The notes beneath the pieces were generated by a model, which saw only the letters and a program-made list of their open reading frames with translations, was not told the origin of the DNA and did not search any database. 21,953 nucleotides of DNA from a virus: the IMG/VR virus record IMGVR_UViG_3300042868_001875, positions 1 to 21,953 of that record. The stretch is one strand, 5' to 3'. Below, piece after piece: positions 987 through 18,631 of the stretch. The position numbers and the translations under genes were made by a program. Positions within the stretch are counted from its first letter, which is position 1; each line of letters begins with the position of its first letter.

Positions 987-1937
987 CTACTCTGCTAAGT
1001 CAGCAATAATTGCGTGAGCAGCTTGGTTCTTAACTTCTAATGTATATTCTACTAAAAGTTGAGTTACATCTGCGTCACCAGATTTAGCCAATTCATTTGT
1101 TTGGAATGGGCGTAAATATGCAACTGCTGCGTACTCTGGATCAAGAACAAATGCTTGTTCACCACTATCACCAGAATCTGCAGTCATAAATCTGTTAGGA
1201 ACAACAGATAATGTACCAAAGTCTGATAAGTAAATATCAGCTGCACCAATGATTGTAGTAGCTTTGTTGCTTGGAGCCATATAACGCTGAGCTGCAACAC
1301 CTGCAAATGCAGATACATTTACTTTTTGTGTTGGAGTTGTCATAAGAATGGTTGGAGTACCACCATTAGTATATGCAGATTTAACTGCTGTTTTTAACAT
1401 TGTTTCTGTGAATGCTGCGTCAGTACCAGATACACGAGCTGTAGTGCCAAGTGAACCAGCAGTACCGTTAGTGCCACCAACGTAGTTAGAATTTAACCAT
1501 GTTTGTAGACCACCAAGTGTACGAGCTGTAGTAGCATTACCAGCTGCTGCAACTGTGTTGCTTAAAAGTGCTTTTTCCATATCACGTTTAAGTTCAGCAG
1601 AAACTTTAGCTAATTGGTAAGCCTTTTCAGATTTACGACCAGCTTTGTTAATTGCTTCCATAGTACCAGAAATCTTAATTGTTTTTGAAGAGATCTGAGT
1701 TCTATTACCTACTCGTGTTGTTGGAGTTACTGTAATGTCAGAAGCTGCGTCACCTTCAACTACAGCGTTAGATGCTGCTGCTGCGAGTGAGTCAGTTTGC
1801 CATTCGTGATATGTTGCTGTTGCCTTTGTCTTACCAATAGAACTCATAAATGGAGTTTCTGTAGGTGAAATGTTATAAATAACATCTGACAAATCTTCTC
1901 TATTACCAATAGAGGTATAGGTTTGATACGTTGCCAT
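987..1937 (-). CDS. Major capsid protein, SU10-type (DUF5309 family)
   Basis: A 316-aa protein that forms the icosahedral shell. The N-terminus (MATYQTYTSIGNREDLSDVI, then SPTETPFMSSIG) carries the N-arm signature common to SU10-type HK97-fold major capsid proteins (the DUF5309/SU10_MCP group): 'NREDL..VI..ISP.ETPF.S..GK'. The central part holds an Ala/Gly/Thr-rich insertion around residues 145-170 and the P-domain-like segment KVNVSAFAGVAAQRYMA. The end (YTLEVKNQAAHAIIADLAE) is a typical capsid C-terminus. The length is normal for the family. The ATG at 1937 has AAGGA six bases upstream. It follows the scaffold gene directly, the usual order, and is followed by a stem-loop. Assembly would use the scaffold encoded just upstream. 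Confidence 0.93.
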   Translation of the reverse strand: MATYQTYTSIGNREDLSDVIYNISPTETPFMSSIGKTKATATYHEWQTDSLAAAASNAVVEGDAASDITVTPTTRVGNRTQISSKTIKISGTMEAINKAGRKSEKAYQLAKVSAELKRDMEKALLSNTVAAAGNATTARTLGGLQTWLNSNYVGGTNGTAGSLGTTARVSGTDAAFTETMLKTAVKSAYTNGGTPTILMTTPTQKVNVSAFAGVAAQRYMAPSNKATTIIGAADIYLSDFGTLSVVPNRFMTADSGDSGEQAFVLDPEYAAVAYLRPFQTNELAKSGDADVTQLLVEYTLEVKNQAAHAIIADLAE

Positions 1938-2994: not shown

Positions 2995-3228
2995 CTAAAA
3001 TATCTTCCATGCTTTACTTTTAATTTCGCTAGTCTTAGCGATTGATTCAAAGTGAGCCATGAGTTCGTTATAGCAAGAGATGCGTTGATATGCTTGTTCT
3101 CTTACGTCTGTTTGTTCTGGATTAGAGTAAACGATGCGTTGCATTTGGTTGTCCACTAATTCCTTGACTGCATCTTGAAAATGCACGTCATTTAAAATAT
3201 TTGCAATGGCCTGTGATTTATCAGACAT
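2995..3228 (-). CDS. Small protein of unknown function between portal and scaffold
   Basis: A 77-aa, mostly helical protein, starting at ATG 3228 and overlapping the end of the portal gene by eight bases, so it is probably translated by coupling. Visible pieces are ILNDVHFQDAVKELVDNQ and REQAYQRISCYNELMAHFES. Small proteins with a similar 'RE.AY..I.....L...' helix recur after the portal gene in podoviral head operons, but I do not know their role. It contains no zinc-binding pairs, membrane segment or enzyme motif. The short gap that follows (2946-2994) contains only the ribosome site of the scaffold gene and a small CCAC/GTGG hairpin. Confidence 0.8.
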   Translation of the reverse strand: MSDKSQAIANILNDVHFQDAVKELVDNQMQRIVYSNPEQTDVREQAYQRISCYNELMAHFESIAKTSEIKSKAWKIF

Positions 3229-5314
3229 TCATACTACCTTTTGCAATGTCATTGATCTTAGTAATAGAGTCCATTACTGTTTTAGTTTGATTGTTCTTAG
3301 CTGTTTCAGTCATGTTAGCTGCATCTAGTTTAAGTTGCATTTCTTTCAACGCTAACTCAGCTGTCTGTACAAGTTCTTTTTGTTGTAATTCTAAAGACTT
3401 GCGTTGATTCTCTAGTTGCATTTGTTCACGATCTAATTGTAGCTTAGCAGCTTCTGTTTGTGCTCTTAGTTGAGCTTTCTCACGTTCTACCTGAGCTAAT
3501 ATTTCAGCTGCTTGTGTATTAGGATCAGCCTTTTGTTGTGATGCTTGTTGTATAACTTGTTGTTCAATCTCTGGAGTAATCTCATTCATGAATGCTGTAG
3601 CATCTTTGAATCCAGCCATGTGTACAAACTTAGCTAATGTATCTCTATATTGTTTAATTGAGATGAGTGGATTGTTTACACCATAAGCCTGTAAGATTTG
3701 TTCTTGCTTACCTAAGATCATTTGCATAGTAGCAAGTTGTTCTTGACGTGAGCCAGTACCTAAACCTACGTTGATAGTGACATTGTATTCTGTATCCCAT
3801 TCACGAGGATCAAAAGGAACAAACTTACCATTAATACGAAGCGTTCTTACTGTATCTTGATACTTGCATAGTAATTGTAAGATACCTTTGAATAGTGATT
3901 TAACACCTGTTTCTGCAAATATACGAGCAATCAATTCTAACTTACCATAAGATGCATTAGACATTGTAGCTACTGCTGCAGCTGTAACGTTTTGCAATAC
4001 ATCTGGACTTAAACCTTGTTGAGCATCGCTAACACCTGTACGTTTAGCTTGAACTCCATCTAAATACTCTAGCATTGGGAATGATTGTGCAGCACTTGAC
4101 TGTACTGTCAATGGTACGATTGCACCTGCATTCTTAACACGAATCACACCACCTGCTGTAGATGTTAATAAGTCATCTAAGTTTACTTGGCCTTCAACTG
4201 CAGCAATGCGTGAGTTGTTAGTTAAGTATAAGTTATCTAACATCTGACGAGTGACAGTAGACTTAATTAATTGAATATCTAATGTACGATCAGCTAATGA
4301 TTGGCCATAGAATTTATGTGGAATTGGTATTGGGCAGATAGAATGAAATGGTACATAATCGCACTCCATATCTTCTAGGATCTCATTAGATGCATATACA
4401 ATTCTTCTTAGTTCTGCAATGCCATCTTCGTTGTAATCTACTTTAATGAAACATTCATACACTTCTACTAATTCCATAGAAATATCTTGAGTGCCCATGC
4501 TGTTAGGTTGTTCACCACGAGAGTAACGAGCAATTCTTTCTGGGCTAAATTCTAATGTATCGCCAGATTCTAATGACTCTACCATGTCTTTATCAAAACC
4601 CATCGCCACTAGCTCAGAACGAGTAAGCATCCTACGATGTGCTACGAATGGTGAATCTTGAATTGTTTTAGCACGCTTAGATATTAAGAACTCTTCTGGA
4701 GGAACATTTTCTACAATGATCTTACCTTTGTTCTTGCTGCGTTTTAATGTAACGTTGTTTGATTTACTGTATGTTGTTTGGCCAGTCATCTCATCAATAG
4801 ATGATTCTTCAATGATTTCTTGAGATGCTAGTTCTATCTCTGGATCTTGCATGAGCATCATTAGCTCATCATCTGATAGGCCTTCATACTTTTCTTTAGT
4901 AACATCTGTATCATCATTCCAGTAAGCCTTAACTACACCAGTCTTTTGTAGTAACGCATCTTTGAACCAGTTATGAAGTATTAAGAAGCCATCGTTATCT
5001 TTATAGAATACATGATTAACTAATTGTGTGGCCTGCTCAGCATTTTGTTCGTCACCTTCTTTAGCTGGTGCAAACTCAACTACGTTATCACTAGAAGTAA
5101 ATACACGAATGAGTTGTGGTAATGCACCATCAACTGCTTCAGCAACTTCACCTGTAACGATTGTAGACTTACCCTCAACTTCATTACCATATGGCTCACG
5201 AAGATAATACTCAAGGGCTTGTTGACGTTCATCTGTAGTATCTGTTTCTAGATAACCTAATGAGTCATCTATCTCAGCCTCAATAATCGTCTTTAATTTG
5301 TTAATATCAATCAT
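3221..5314 (-). CDS. Portal protein, SU10/P22-like
   Basis: A 697-aa protein that forms the dodecameric DNA-entry ring at one capsid vertex. It follows the large terminase directly and has the portal hallmarks: an N-terminal helical region (LGYLETDTTDERQQALEYYL, then GRSTIVTGEVAEAVDGALPQ-like text at residues about 47-67), the FTSSDNVVEFAPAKEGDEQN segment, a long central stem region containing GQSLADRTLDIQLIKSTVTR, and the VSDAQQGLSPDVLQNVTAAA motif near residue 430, which is highly typical of this family. The last 120 residues are a long Gln/Glu/Lys/Ala coiled coil, comparable to the barrel of P22 portal. The length suits the group. The start ATG 5314 lies next to the terminase stop, with no gap. 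Confidence 0.93.
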   Translation of the reverse strand: MIDINKLKTIIEAEIDDSLGYLETDTTDERQQALEYYLREPYGNEVEGKSTIVTGEVAEAVDGALPQLIRVFTSSDNVVEFAPAKEGDEQNAEQATQLVNHVFYKDNDGFLILHNWFKDALLQKTGVVKAYWNDDTDVTKEKYEGLSDDELMMLMQDPEIELASQEIIEESSIDEMTGQTTYSKSNNVTLKRSKNKGKIIVENVPPEEFLISKRAKTIQDSPFVAHRRMLTRSELVAMGFDKDMVESLESGDTLEFSPERIARYSRGEQPNSMGTQDISMELVEVYECFIKVDYNEDGIAELRRIVYASNEILEDMECDYVPFHSICPIPIPHKFYGQSLADRTLDIQLIKSTVTRQMLDNLYLTNNSRIAAVEGQVNLDDLLTSTAGGVIRVKNAGAIVPLTVQSSAAQSFPMLEYLDGVQAKRTGVSDAQQGLSPDVLQNVTAAAVATMSNASYGKLELIARIFAETGVKSLFKGILQLLCKYQDTVRTLRINGKFVPFDPREWDTEYNVTINVGLGTGSRQEQLATMQMILGKQEQILQAYGVNNPLISIKQYRDTLAKFVHMAGFKDATAFMNEITPEIEQQVIQQASQQKADPNTQAAEILAQVEREKAQLRAQTEAAKLQLDREQMQLENQRKSLELQQKELVQTAELALKEMQLKLDAANMTETAKNNQTKTVMDSITKINDIAKGSMNV

Positions 5315-6607
5315 CTATACAATCCATTTATTATTAATGTTGAGAGGTTGACCCCAATCAGAGCCACTTTCATCTAAGCCTACCGCTAAATATCTAAATG
5401 CGTCAGCAGCATGAGAGCACCAATCATGTAGTGGTGTATCAAAGAATACGTTACGCTTCTCATCATATGTTCTACGATAGTTTCGTAATGCATCTATACC
5501 TTGCTTAACGTCTTTATCAAACCAGCATCTAGGAAGTAACCTGCGTACTGCTTGAATTCCATCTGCAACTGGTAGTTTCTTTACTACTGTAATCTCTAGT
5601 CCTGCATCTTGTAACATCTCTTTACGAGATTTACCTGTACCTAATTCTCTTACCTCTACATCATGAGGTAACAACTGTACAGCATCAATCCAACCATTAT
5701 CACGCAACCAAGCAACATAAGTATCCAATCCTTGTCCATGATTTTCATAGAAATCTACAAGTCTTATTTCCTTACCTACTACTTGTGCTACCCAAATTGC
5801 TGTGCTATCTGATATACCTAAGTCCCATGCACAATATGTCTTTGCTAGTTCTTCTCTAGGTATAGATGTTATCTTATTATTCTTTTCTAAATCATTAATG
5901 ATCTGGCCATAGTATGAGCCTTCTACTGCTGCATTAAATGAGCATTCAAACTCTTGGTTATACTTATCCTCACCCATCTCATTTTTAGCTGAGGCTAATT
6001 CATTTGCATCTAGTAACTGTGTTTGTGATGCCTTAAACTCTAATAGCTTCCATTGATCGTCACCTTTGTCAGCACGATCTCTTAAATCTTTAAAGTGATT
6101 ATTGCCTTTAGGTGTACCAATAAACATTGCCCAACCTAAACGATCAGATAATGCTGGTCGTACAACTTCACTAAATATAATTGGATTAATATCACCAATC
6201 TCATCAATCACTACACCGTCTAAATAGATACCTCGTAATGCGTCAGGATTATCTGCACCGTATAATGAAATACGTCTGCCCATGAAATCAACTCTTAACT
6301 CTGCTATGTTAGCAATAGCACCTAGTGGCCTTGTATAGTTAAGTAAGTAATCCCATGCAATACGTTTACATTGTGAGTACGTTGGAGCAATGTATGCAAA
6401 TCTTGGATTAGGTTTATCACACAGTAGTGATGAATGTATCAACTGGTTTATGGCTGATACCGTCTTGCCCATACGTCTATGAGCTACCACTACTGTGAAC
6501 CTGTTGTCCTTCACCATTTGGTGAATCAACTTCTGTGGATTACGAGGTGTATAATCAGTAGATACTACATCCTCTTCATCATCTATAATTTCAATCTCTT
6601 CAGACAT
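5315..6607 (-). CDS. terL: Terminase large subunit (ATPase and nuclease)
   Basis: A 430-aa DNA-packaging motor that pumps and cuts the phage genome at the portal. The N-terminal ATPase has Walker A at residues 42-49 (AHRRMGKT), Walker B near 132-136 (VVIDE, with catalytic Glu136), and the coupling motif IGTPKG at 163-168. The C-terminal RNase H-fold nuclease shows acidic residues in the expected places: D262 in AWDLGISDST, D316 in LLPHDVEVRE, and D402 in the terminal HDWCSHAADAFRY segment. Both halves look intact. It overlaps the end of the small-subunit candidate by eight bases. 'Portal next, small subunit before' is the normal packaging-module order. Confidence 0.95.
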   Translation of the reverse strand: MSEEIEIIDDEEDVVSTDYTPRNPQKLIHQMVKDNRFTVVVAHRRMGKTVSAINQLIHSSLLCDKPNPRFAYIAPTYSQCKRIAWDYLLNYTRPLGAIANIAELRVDFMGRRISLYGADNPDALRGIYLDGVVIDEIGDINPIIFSEVVRPALSDRLGWAMFIGTPKGNNHFKDLRDRADKGDDQWKLLEFKASQTQLLDANELASAKNEMGEDKYNQEFECSFNAAVEGSYYGQIINDLEKNNKITSIPREELAKTYCAWDLGISDSTAIWVAQVVGKEIRLVDFYENHGQGLDTYVAWLRDNGWIDAVQLLPHDVEVRELGTGKSRKEMLQDAGLEITVVKKLPVADGIQAVRRLLPRCWFDKDVKQGIDALRNYRRTYDEKRNVFFDTPLHDWCSHAADAFRYLAVGLDESGSDWGQPLNINNKWIV

Positions 6608-7786: not shown

Positions 7787-7960
7787 TTATTTTTTCTTTT
7801 TCTTGCTCATGCCTGCTTCGCTTAAAGCGATTGCAATACCTTGAGCTTTAGATTTAACTACCTTGCCACCCTTACCAGAGTGCAATGTACCAGCTTTATA
7901 CTCACCCATTACTTTTGCTACCTTTTTTAACTTCCCAGCTTTTGATGTGGGTTTCTTCAT
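7787..7960 (-). CDS. DUF6496-like small basic protein
   Basis: A 57-aa frame from ATG 7960, which has AAGGA six bases upstream. The C-terminal core 'VMGEYKAGTLHSGKGGKVVK' followed by SKAQGIAIALSEAG is the signature of the DUF6496 group ('M..+K.G.L.SG.GKKV..R.QAIAIALSEA'), short basic proteins of unknown function found in many phages. The N-terminus is Lys-rich and the end is a lysine run. It overlaps the 3' part of the zinc-ribbon gene by 59 bases in another frame. A later start at ATG 7909 would cut the overlap to eight bases, but lacks a good ribosome site. Confidence 0.8.
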   Translation of the reverse strand: MKKPTSKAGKLKKVAKVMGEYKAGTLHSGKGGKVVKSKAQGIAIALSEAGMSKKKKK

Positions 7961-8075
7961 CTGGTTTCCTTAATTTAAAATGTGTTAGGTTTCTACAGTC
8001 TTGACATATAGAAGATCCTGTGTCATCTGAATCGTATGGTTCACCACACTCTTGACATATTTGCACTTGGATCAT
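7902..8075 (-). CDS. Zinc-ribbon-like small protein, first gene of the late unit
   Basis: A 57-aa frame from ATG 8075 (a TTG at 8084 would add three residues; neither has a clear Shine-Dalgarno). Two Cys pairs, CQEC and CQDC, lie 13 residues apart with an acidic loop between them (GEPYDSDDTGSSI), the pattern of a small zinc ribbon. The C-terminal half is basic and overlaps the next gene by 59 bases. It is the first frame after the intrinsic terminator at 8088-8113, so it would be translated only from read-through transcripts. The function is unknown. A nucleic-acid or transcription-complex binding role is a guess from the fold type. Confidence 0.55.
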   Translation of the reverse strand: MIQVQICQECGEPYDSDDTGSSICQDCRNLTHFKLRKPDEETHIKSWEVKKGSKSNG

Positions 8076-8087
8076 CTTATTCAAACT

Positions 8088-8113
8088 AAAAAAAAGCCTG
8101 CTATTACACAGGC
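8088..8113 (-). terminator. Intrinsic terminator between late promoter and late genes
   Basis: On the minus strand GCCTG (8113-8109) pairs with CAGGC (8100-8096) across an 8-base loop, followed immediately by eight U residues (8095-8088). The short GC-rich stem plus clean U-run fits a Rho-independent terminator. It also ends the leftward early operon. It stands only about 45-50 bases past the predicted start of the late transcript, the place expected of a tR'-like late attenuator. Confidence 0.8.
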
Positions 8114-8160
8114 CAATTATGGAGTGCTATGAAAGTGATAGATACACTTATCCCAGCACC
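8088..8160 (-). ncRNA. Predicted short leader RNA of the late promoter (lambda 6S-like)
   Basis: The start predicted 5-7 bases after the -10 box is G8160 or G8159, and the RNA would end in the U-run at 8088, giving about 70-73 nt. From +1 or +2 it folds into a long hairpin: GUGCU (8159-8155) pairs with AGCAC (8128-8124), and AAGUG (8149-8145) with CACUU (8137-8133), closed by a 7-base loop, with G-C and A-U pairs possible in the internal loop. Then comes a 10-base linker and the terminator hairpin. No open frame fits inside. It could be a true small RNA, the default product of an antiterminated promoter, or a cis element like HK022 put RNA. Prediction only. Confidence 0.6.
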
Positions 8161-8164
8161 AGCG

Positions 8165-8194
8165 ATTATATCATATATAATAGGCCATTGTCAA
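8165..8194 (-). promoter_or_regulatory. Strong consensus sigma-70 promoter, candidate late promoter (pR'-like)
   Basis: Read on the minus strand, the -35 is TTGACA (8194-8189) and the -10 is TATAAT (8170-8165), both perfect. The spacer is 18 bases, with TG plus one base just before the -10 (extended -10). It begins three bases after the stop of the Q-like gene and points at the late genes. In lambdoid phages the Q binding site sits in the same place, between the -35 and -10 of pR'. Confidence 0.85.
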
Positions 8195-8197
8195 GTG

Positions 8198-8521
8198 CTA
8201 ATTGGGTATTCTGCGTGTTGCTATGTTTAATAAATTATCGTAGGCCATGTTCATGTGGTAATCTTGCAACACCTCAGCCCTAGATCCTGTGTACTTATGA
8301 TAGACAGCATTTTGTTGACGTTCTGGAAGTGAATCTATAATAGCCTGTATAGTTTTAATGTGATCATTCTGCATAGACTCATACATCTCATCAAACGATG
8401 TACTATTGCCACCAGTACTCATCCCTAAACTGCGACTAGGAAAACCAAGTTTACTATTGCCACTATGCTTAAGACTTCTTGCCCATGCCTTTAATAGATC
8501 CTGCAGCCTTTCCATTGTCAT
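8198..8521 (-). CDS. Q-like late antitermination protein candidate
   Basis: A 107-aa protein from ATG 8521, chosen because GGAGG lies six bases upstream; the frame is open further but without a ribosome site. The N-terminus MTMERLQDLLKAWARSLKHS, then LGFPSRSLGMSTGG, followed by a helical region (IKTIQAIIDSLPERQQNAVY, HKYTG) and a last helix (MAYDNLLNIATRRI), resembles the phage 82-type antitermination Q family: 'L..W..W...G.GFPS.S', then a sigma region 4-like helical part. Such proteins bind DNA at the late promoter, load onto RNA polymerase and make it ignore terminators. The match is by eye. Strong independent support is the location: last gene of the early operon, directly before a consensus promoter and an early terminator. 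RinA/ArpU-like activators are an alternative. Confidence 0.65.
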   Translation of the reverse strand: MTMERLQDLLKAWARSLKHSGNSKLGFPSRSLGMSTGGNSTSFDEMYESMQNDHIKTIQAIIDSLPERQQNAVYHKYTGSRAEVLQDYHMNMAYDNLLNIATRRIPN

Positions 8522-8522
8522 A

Positions 8523-8918
8523 CTAATCCTCCAGAGAATATATTGAGCTAACGTTATTTGACTCTGATCCATTGTGTGATCTTAAATTATGTTTGGTGTG
8601 TGTTTCCTTATAAACTGTGCCAGTCATATTTTCATATCCAGATGGCAATGGCCTTAGTATGCTTTGAAGTAAGCATGGACTATCTTTAAAATACAATGTA
8701 TGACTCTTGCATCCACTAGCATTAAGGTAACGATAGGCCACCATGTTTGCAATAGCACTTACAATTTGTTTGTAGTTAGCATTAATGCGTCTAGCTATTT
8801 CAGTAGATGAAATTCTTTCGTCACCTACAGCTTCAATAATTAATTCTCTTAATTTTGCAATGGTAATTTCTTCACCATTAACTTTATATATTTTTTGTGC
8901 TTTTGGATTGTTGTTCAT
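8523..8918 (-). CDS. Helix-turn-helix protein of unknown function
   Basis: A 131-aa protein from ATG 8918, overlapping the stop of the gene before it (ATGA). Residues about 36-68 (ISSTEIARRINANYKQIVSA, then IANMVAYRYL) read as a helix-turn-helix or winged-helix DNA-binding region: a short helix, a turn at the Asn, and a recognition helix. The C-terminal 40 residues are Ser/Asn/His-rich and probably disordered. It stands just before the Q-like gene at the end of the early operon, a place often taken by regulators. It might be a repressor or middle-gene regulator, but no target can be named. Confidence 0.7.
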   Translation of the reverse strand: MNNNPKAQKIYKVNGEEITIAKLRELIIEAVGDERISSTEIARRINANYKQIVSAIANMVAYRYLNASGCKSHTLYFKDSPCLLQSILRPLPSGYENMTGTVYKETHTKHNLRSHNGSESNNVSSIYSLED

Positions 8919-9890: not shown

Positions 9891-10005
9891 CATCATCCTC
9901 CATGATATGAACTTTAATATATTTATAAGCTGCTTCAATTGCTACAAATGGAATTAAGAATGGCACTAACATAAAGCCAACAATCCCTACAATAAATCTA
10001 AGCAT
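9883..10005 (-). CDS. 40-aa single-span membrane protein
   Basis: A short frame from ATG 10005 encoding MLRFIVGIVGFMLVPFLIPF, then VAIEAAYKYIKVHIMEDDDG. The first 25 residues form one hydrophobic transmembrane segment; the tail is basic, then acidic. It overlaps the end of the HNH gene by eight bases and the start of the MGKGS gene by eight bases. The GGAGG of the next gene is inside it. The ribosome site is weak (GAG at nine bases). The coding pattern fills an otherwise empty gap exactly. Role unknown; small membrane proteins in early operons can act on host membrane functions or superinfection. Confidence 0.55.
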   Translation of the reverse strand: MLRFIVGIVGFMLVPFLIPFVAIEAAYKYIKVHIMEDDDG

Positions 10006-10282
10006 TTATTCTACTCAATGTATCAGCAAGCAACTCTTCTTCTGTACCAAATTTACTTTCAAATGTTTCTTGTCCTGCGTGTAATGCAATACCATGACCA
10101 CCATGCTGGTGATGATTAGGGCACAATGGAATTGCGTTCATAAAATTATTACGCATACCCATTCCCATACCATGACGAATATGATGTATGTGTGGAGGTG
10201 AATGACCCCACCCCTCTCTTAAACATACAATACATCCAAGCTGTGACAGTTTATCATAGTGCTGCTTCTCTGCTTTTGTCAA
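9998..10282 (-). CDS. Ref-like HNH endonuclease (RecA-dependent nuclease family)
   Basis: A 94-aa protein. The start is TTG 10282, with AGGA seven bases upstream and no better ATG. It carries LGCIVCLREGWGHSPPHIHH (zinc-binding CxxC and a catalytic HH), then AIPLCPNHHQHGGHGIALHA and ESKFGTEEELL. The order 'LGC..C....G.......HH....G.G', 'IPLC..HHQ.G..G.A.H', 'FE..+GTE..LL' is the signature of phage P1 Ref and relatives, which cut DNA at RecA-made displacement loops. Length is normal for the short form. It follows the NinB/YbcN-like gene, overlapping it by 29 bases, so the two probably act in the same recombination or repair step. Confidence 0.8.
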   Translation of the reverse strand: MTKAEKQHYDKLSQLGCIVCLREGWGHSPPHIHHIRHGMGMGMRNNFMNAIPLCPNHHQHGGHGIALHAGQETFESKFGTEEELLADTLSRINA

Positions 10283-10619
10283 AATGAAATCCTAACTCTA
10301 TTGCGAAACGTTGAATGTCTTGAATATAATTTTTGAACTCGTCTACATTTAAAGATGTCGTACTCTTTATAGCATATATTTCAGATCCTGCAACTGTCTT
10401 TTTTTCTGAAAGATATTTAAACCTAAACATATCATGCAACTCTTCTTCAGAGTAACCACAGTAATCACCAATCTCTTTTAACATTGCCCAGTACAAATCA
10501 TTTTGTGAGTTAGATCTTTTTAATTTAAATTTATCTAATTCAAGATCACCATCTTTTTGAAAGTCATGGCCATTAATTTTTGCTATCGCCATTTCCTTGT
10601 TGTGTTTCGTTATCCTCAT
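10254..10619 (-). CDS. NinB/YbcN-like recombination protein
   Basis: A 121-aa protein. ATG 10619 is preferred (GGAG nine bases upstream) over a longer frame that would lie within the neighbour gene. Key segments are LKRSNSQNDLYWAMLKEIGD, CGYSEEELHDMFRFKYL, KSTTSLNVDEFKNYIQDIQR and FAIELGFHF. The pattern 'KRS..QN.LYW..L..I......s.EELH..fR.KyL', 'KSTT.L...EF..YI..I..fA...G' is the NinB/YbcN family, a recombination accessory in lambdoid phages; lambda Orf (NinB) acts as a recombination mediator that contacts SSB. It overlaps the HNH gene downstream and the 59-aa gene upstream by 47 bases. Confidence 0.8.
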   Translation of the reverse strand: MRITKHNKEMAIAKINGHDFQKDGDLELDKFKLKRSNSQNDLYWAMLKEIGDYCGYSEEELHDMFRFKYLSEKKTVAGSEIYAIKSTTSLNVDEFKNYIQDIQRFAIELGFHFDKSREAAL

Positions 10620-10752
10620 ATTTTTTGCTCCACTTAGTAGATTTATAAACCATTCCATTTTTTAATGTTACCTTCCATTCAGTAGGTGATAAAAGTTTTC
10701 CTTCTTCGTCAACGTCAAAACATTTAAACCATTTAGTTGTTTCATATTTCAT
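10573..10752 (-). CDS. Small soluble protein of unknown function
   Basis: A 59-aa frame from ATG 10752, overlapping the helicase stop as ATGA. It begins MKYETTKWFKCFDVDEEGKL and continues LSPTEWKVTLKNGMVYKSTK before a polar, probably disordered tail. Two similar beta-like stretches with Trp (TKWFKCFDV, TEWKVTLKNG) suggest a small beta-structured domain. I do not recognise a family. The end overlaps the next gene by 47 bases in another frame. Coupling to the helicase gene is the main support for its being translated. Confidence 0.7.
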   Translation of the reverse strand: MKYETTKWFKCFDVDEEGKLLSPTEWKVTLKNGMVYKSTKWSKKYEDNETQQGNGDSKN

Positions 10753-18453: not shown

Positions 18454-18617
18454 CAATTAAATTTAAATACAAACCTACATTATTAAGTGAAGAGCATATA
18501 CAACAAATATGCAAATTTTTAAAGACACCTTATGTTAAAGGTGAGTACCAGAAGTGGAATAAGTTTTCTCAATTCAAGTTCTGGCACAAAGATAAGATGG
18601 ACAAAAGGGATAAGTAA
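18450..18617 (+). CDS. Small basic protein, TTG start
   Basis: A 55-aa frame from TTG 18450, with GAAGGGG upstream and a four-base overlap with the preceding stop (TTGA, the same coupling as the more usual ATGA). It begins MTIKFKYKPTLLSEEHIQQI and continues CKFLKTPYVKGEYQKWNKF, ending in a Lys/Asp-rich tail. It is basic and probably soluble. No family is recognised. It is the last gene of the rightward unit, and its stop lies inside the stem-loop of the terminator. Confidence 0.6.
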   Translation: MTIKFKYKPTLLSEEHIQQICKFLKTPYVKGEYQKWNKFSQFKFWHKDKMDKRDK

Positions 18618-18631
18618 TTATCCCTTTTTTT
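18602..18631. terminator. Strong bidirectional intrinsic terminator
   Basis: AGGGATAA (18606-18613) pairs with TTATCCCT (18618-18625) around a GTAA tetraloop. Flanking A and T runs extend the stem. Seven T residues follow on the plus strand (18625-18631), and on the minus strand the stem is followed by a shorter T run. It stands between convergent genes and would end both the rightward unit and the leftward late unit. Confidence 0.9.

Follow-up and report, generated by a model that had tools for sequence, protein, structure and literature searches.

The viral DNA analyzed here (the window, 21,953 nucleotides) very probably carries a late switch of the Q/pR'/tR' type, in which a Q-like protein of 107 amino acids is predicted to act by antitermination. 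The gene family, the promoter, a pause-like sequence and the terminator are conserved together, and the promoter and terminator belong to a cassette that heads the late operon. The best reading is that this system represents a new and very small branch of the known Q-type antitermination. The Q-like gene, the promoter, the terminator and the first late gene all lie where an earlier note on this DNA had placed them (Table 1).

Table 1. Features of the predicted late switch and of the early and late operons in the window, with the evidence for each.
Feature	Position	Strand	Evidence
SU10-type major capsid protein, late operon	987..1937	-	PF17236, E 1.9e-99
SU10-type portal protein, late operon	3221..5314	-	PF23899, E 7.6e-223
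Terminase large subunit, late operon	5315..6607	-	PHROG terminase large subunit
First late gene, small zinc-ribbon-like protein	7902..8075	-	ORF, weak zinc-ribbon Pfam matches
Intrinsic terminator (tR'-like), 7-bp stem and 8 T	8088..8114	-	Compensatory stem changes in relatives
Untranslated leader, predicted start site to terminator	8115..8158	-	Sequence and conservation
Predicted promoter-proximal pause, GG-N8-YR in first transcribed bases	8143..8154	-	Fixed register in relatives
Late promoter (pR'-like): TTGACA, 18-nt spacer, TGn extension, TATAAT	8165..8194	-	
Q-like antiterminator gene (predicted), 107 aa	8198..8521	-	ORF, family alignment, AlphaFold2 model, profile matches
Q-like protein parts: helix (residues 3-20), disordered loop (21-42), sigma-region-4-like helices (43-104)			
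Ref-type RecA-dependent nuclease, early operon	9998..10282	-	PF16786, E 1.1e-11
NinB homologue, early operon upstream of Q	10254..10658	-	PF05772, E 1.5e-6, over cut-off

The Q-like ORF ends with the stop codon TAG (8200-8198, minus strand), which is followed by CAC and then by the -35 hexamer TTGACA (8194-8189); the spacer ends with TGA and leads to the -10 hexamer TATAAT (8170-8165). The consensus extended -10 promoter that the earlier note had described three bases past the Q stop was thus recovered, and it is the sole 12/12 sigma-70 match of the window when both strands are scanned, with approximately 0.05 such promoters, or 0.004 with TG, expected in 22 kb of the window's dinucleotide composition. 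A sigma-70 promoter is therefore present upstream of the late operon, and transcription is predicted to start near 8158, about 7 nt past the -10 hexamer. The terminator stem (8114-8095) and its eight T (8095-8088) are found approximately 44-70 nt into this transcript, whose terminated form is predicted to be 60-70 nt long. The first late ORF (ATG at 8075) begins about 13 nt past the T tract, and in close relatives this same gene likewise comes after the terminator. The terminator count alone is not significant, as three were found in the first 12 kb vs. 6.7 in shuffles. The terminator at 8114-8088 is established because the stems differ among relatives yet stay complementary: in 20 leaders with different stems, the leaders' own arms pair at -12.5 kcal/mol vs. 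-6.6 kcal/mol for swapped arms, and none of 20,000 permutations was as good. Elsewhere in the window, a strong 11-bp terminator-like stem lies between convergent genes (18603-18628).

Searches of viral contigs with the 107-aa protein yielded approximately 155 loci. The co-occurrence of gene, promoter and terminator in relatives, as claimed earlier, was borne out: the cassette directly follows Q, with a TATAAT promoter within 75 nt of the stop, in approximately 134 of the 155 loci, a count that overstates independence because the loci include near-duplicates, the 29 protein clusters (at 90% identity) and 75 distinct leaders being better units. Typically, TTGACA overlaps or lies near the stop codon; the leader after the promoter is short and leads into a stem-loop with a T tract, beyond which lies a small late gene. 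In five loci (L043, L044, L050, L068 and L255) one gene is inserted between Q and the cassette. A scan of viral contigs for the promoter plus TGGGATA, in which the Q gene was ignored, returned 80 usable loci, of which 33 have Q directly upstream. All 33 have the terminator, and the remaining loci are mostly unrelated promoters, apart from the inverted-type units described below. The whole cassette is present in MW202481. No cassette was found for the Q gene of L074, L076 or Methylophilales phage Venkman; several candidate positions for a late promoter were examined in Venkman, and none was convincing. In Venkman (L251 1-500, L250) the next gene overlaps the Q homologue, and the late genes lie on the opposite strand. 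MW202710, MW202462 and HTVC106P share the portal and have neither a tblastn match to Q nor the cassette. EBPR podovirus 1, whose SU10-portal match is at best marginal, has a remote Q homologue followed by TTGACA-17-CAGAAT, GG-N8-CG, a terminator and TerS, which suggests that the unit may extend beyond this lineage. Another recurrent promoter, TATAATATAGG-GTATGGGATAGCTATAGGTAGTATCC, was observed in L266, L286, L299, L301, L303, L307, L313, L321 and L324; these contigs have no Q-like gene, and the part that is transcribed can fold into a GGATA/TATCC hairpin.

In one group of relatives, no promoter follows the Q gene. Three IMG/VR records of this group (G013, G014 and G016) have a portal match, and in each of them the SU10 portal is on the strand opposite to Q. 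A unit that serves the late genes is expected to head the inverted late operon, and all three records lack the cassette after Q and have it at that place. In G013 and G014 (L252, 13963, plus strand; L253, 5057, minus strand), it consists of TTGACA-17-TATAAT, TGGGATAACTACG and then GGGGCTAAAAAGCCCC, while in G016 (L254, 4388, minus strand) it consists of TGATATAAT, GGGCGAAAAGCG and then the terminator. In G013, the late genes toward the terminase and portal come next, on the same strand as the cassette. The inverted-type unit recurs in L281, L284, L288, L292, L302 and L305 of the promoter-plus-TGGGATA scan. When the late genes are inverted, the cassette travels with them and not with Q.

A pause-like sequence, which the earlier note had not described, lies in the first transcribed bases. 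The elemental pause consensus is G-10 Y-1 G+1. GG-N8-YG was found 9-11 nt past the -10 hexamer in 51 of the 75 distinct leaders (mean of 2.1 and maximum of 7 in shuffles), and GG-N8-YA was found at a similar position in most other leaders, including that of the window. In most of the 75 leaders a -10-like hexamer (GATAAT, GATAAG or GATAGT) following TGn overlaps it; in the window, this hexamer is GATAAG (8152-8147, minus strand) with TGG before it. Of 25 records, 18 contain the full pattern TTGA-N18..20-TATAAT-N8..12-GG-N8-YR exactly once, and the reversed control gave no match. On a scale from 0 (saturated) to 1 (invariant), composition-corrected constraint of the pause region is 0.84, 0.85 and 0.43 in three leader groups, far above neutral sites overall, although anchoring the region on its own GG inflates its value somewhat. 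The pause is predicted at about +14, or at +18 to +20 if the -10-like hexamer sets it; the polymerase engaged by 21Q is arrested at +14 (PMC6606751). This conserved pause-like sequence is the strongest additional sign of Q control.

No comparable conservation was found in the spacer between the -35 and -10 hexamers, where constraint is 0.24, 0.21 and 0.32 in the three leader groups vs. 0.28, 0.41 and 0.38 at the four-fold sites of the gene, i.e., there is no extra constraint indicative of a Q-binding element, and no such site was found elsewhere either. An earlier spacer comparison used third codon positions, which was unfair because of two-fold sites; repeating it with four-fold sites and composition correction led to the same conclusion. 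Synonymous sites in codons 100-107 of Q, just upstream of the -35 hexamer, are extra conserved in group I relatives (p 0.0075) and not in groups II and III, and are therefore only a hint of an overlapping site. The leader of the window also contains CTCC (8124-8121, minus strand), which is part of a ACTCTCCGTAG-like motif. In leaders of relatives (e.g., L088 and L027), this motif is found between the pause region and the terminator; it lies in the terminator loop in one group, varies in its distance from the promoter and is absent from the inverted-type units.

The AlphaFold2 model of the 107-aa protein (pLDDT 81) has the order helix, disordered loop and C-terminal sigma-region-4-like domain. 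The loop, although modelled with low confidence, contains many of the most invariant residues in the family alignment (L25, G26, P28, G37 and G38). The C-terminal domain matches sigma region 4 with Z of about 6 and rmsd of 2-3 over 60 residues, a Z value that can also reflect a common arrangement; Foldseek against the PDB listed sigma factors and not 21Q, whose absence from the matches listed is not evidence. As a single sequence, the window protein gave nothing useful against Pfam, including no PF06530 match. Among the 29 family members, seven match PF06530 below threshold (best E 1.4e-4) and 12 match sigma-70 region 4, while none reaches the PF06530 gathering cut-off (26 bits) when scored individually. 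When the family was compared by HHalign with ten known Q proteins, one of them a 21Q relative with solved homologues (6jnx and 6p18), the score was 30.9 and the probability 54% over residues 5-72, vs. a maximum score of 20.1 in 100 column shuffles; the alignment is strongest to the DLP12-type members and absent with the 21Q-type subset alone. Both the PF06530 signal and the HHalign alignment extend over the N-terminal helix and the loop. These comparisons point to profile-level homology of the family to known PF06530/21Q members, and by profile and fold the 107-aa protein is predicted to be a remote relative of the 21Q-type Q proteins. The identification in the earlier note is supported in this remote sense, although the window protein by itself has no PF06530 match. 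Because the PF06530 signals are below threshold and the Q layout comes from a model, we name it a Q-like protein and not a PF06530 member. The first family profile (A1), searched against the sequences of solved structures, gave nothing meaningful, a viral scan with DLP12 QuuD found near-identical copies only, and bacterial genomes gave 49 pattern matches and no true relatives. Homologues in MW202481.1 (ctXG6705) and Venkman have already been named automatically as "phage antitermination protein Q" and "antitermination-like protein"; no text on antitermination in Venkman was found in the papers searched.

The sigma-region-4-like domain also suggests a different role, in which the protein activates, or appropriates sigma for, another late promoter, while the promoter-terminator unit yields a small RNA. 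The structural matches that are clear are all to sigma region 4, and late transcription in SU10-type relatives, phiEco32 among them, depends on a sigma factor encoded by the phage (PMC8948821). We nevertheless consider such an activator very unlikely, given that the cassette follows the late operon and not Q upon inversion and that the profile similarity to Q proteins includes the N-terminal helix and loop. Sigma-70 region 2 (PF04542) was also matched by no protein in 13 records with positive controls, although this search could miss a divergent sigma factor, and the window is itself only a fragment. For T7-like RNA polymerase there was no match, but the control was also without a match.

Another explanation assigns no role to the protein: the terminator, which also closes the early operon, would mainly end early transcripts, and the late genes would be transcribed from an ordinary strong promoter by partial read-through, since terminators leak. 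This appears very unlikely, as G013, G014 and G016 keep the terminator after the late promoter with the Q operon elsewhere, and the interval between promoter and terminator retains a pause-like sequence in fixed register. That the leader RNA itself drives read-through, like the put RNA of HK022, with the protein dispensable, is less probable still and can be given hardly any weight. The leaders of the window (z -3.4) and L001 (z -4.7) fold better than shuffles, but most leaders have no excess stability, and no covariation of hairpin arms was found across 19 leader classes (p 0.23). A conserved leader hairpin of the put type, strong in these two leaders, was accordingly dropped as a candidate element.

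Based on antitermination by a Q-like protein, we propose that host sigma-70 RNA polymerase would initiate constitutively at the near-consensus promoter, pause within approximately 14-20 nt of the start and, without Q, stop at the terminator. Once early transcription has yielded enough of the 107-aa protein, the protein may load onto the paused polymerase. There, the sigma-region-4-like domain would bind both DNA and the polymerase, and a collar inside the RNA exit channel would be built from the conserved loop. The modified polymerase would then ignore the terminator and transcribe the late operon, which encodes the terminase, SU10-type portal and capsid, with Q probably acting in trans. A tentative extension, which we put forward as possible and less likely than not to be correct, is that a minimal Q needs no sequence-specific site between -35 and -10 for its recruitment and instead recognizes either the extended -10 or the transcribed pause region, so that promoter, loading site and terminator would together take up about 110 bp and the switch would work in trans on an inverted late operon.

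The closest known counterpart is the phage 21 Q family (PF06530; 21Q and DLP12 QuuD), which shares the position in the early operon before the late genes, remote profile similarity, a helix-loop-sigma-region-4-like layout as predicted by the model, a sigma-70 promoter, a pause-like sequence and a terminator before the late genes. It differs in length (162 aa for 21Q vs. 107 aa here), and the window family is below the PF06530 cut-off, has no constrained Q site in the spacer and is associated with SU10-type head genes. With lambda Q/pR'/tR' (PF03589), the switch shares the order of gene, pro­moter, pause and terminator; unlike lambda, there is no Pfam match to lambda Q, the leader is about 70 nt long vs. 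194 nt and the -10-like element is approximately 5 bp further downstream. The lambda pause is reported at +16/17 (PMC7876045), and the lambda sequence there reads G-N8-CG. AlpA of Pseudomonas aeruginosa is also a small antiterminator, with an N-terminal ring and a C-terminal HTH (PMC9371919), and the published layout shared by 21Q and AlpA is a helix, a ring and a sigma-region-4-like HTH (PMC6606751, PMC9371919). The alpB promoter with its downstream terminator tB and a -10-like sequence (PMC9371919) resembles the unit found here, whereas AlpA controls a bacterial lysis programme. The Q-binding sites of lambda, phage 21 and AlpA are all between -35 and -10, the same spacer that shows no extra constraint here.

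SU10 is a phiEco32-like phage, and the window has the SU10 portal and capsid families; in contrast to the phage sigma promoters of the phiEco32 late genes (PMC8948821), the late promoter here is of the host sigma-70 type and followed by a terminator, and the search of 13 records for a sigma-70 region 2 gene was negative. Q-type antitermination may extend to an uncultured phage lineage from aquatic habitats, with phage sigma factors reported for its better-known SU10-type relatives, which suggests that the early-to-late switch has been exchanged between phages that share head genes. Approximately 75 naturally varied leaders and one short protein constitute a useful set for studying the requirements of Q loading, and the predicted switch is compact enough for one reporter construct.

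The SU10 portal scores over cut-off in 21 of 24 related records, while the early operon has lambda-like content: CHC2 zinc finger, DnaB-like helicase, NinB, Ref nuclease and Q, with Cro in relatives. The earlier description of the phage as non-lambdoid and SU10-like thus fits the head genes and not the early region. The Venkman portal is 61% identical to that of the window, a 22-kb fragment, and our guess from Venkman is that the host belongs to the Methylophilales. The gene directly upstream of Q (8523-8918, minus strand) weakly matches Ren-like exclusion proteins (PHROG 142, E 0.0019).
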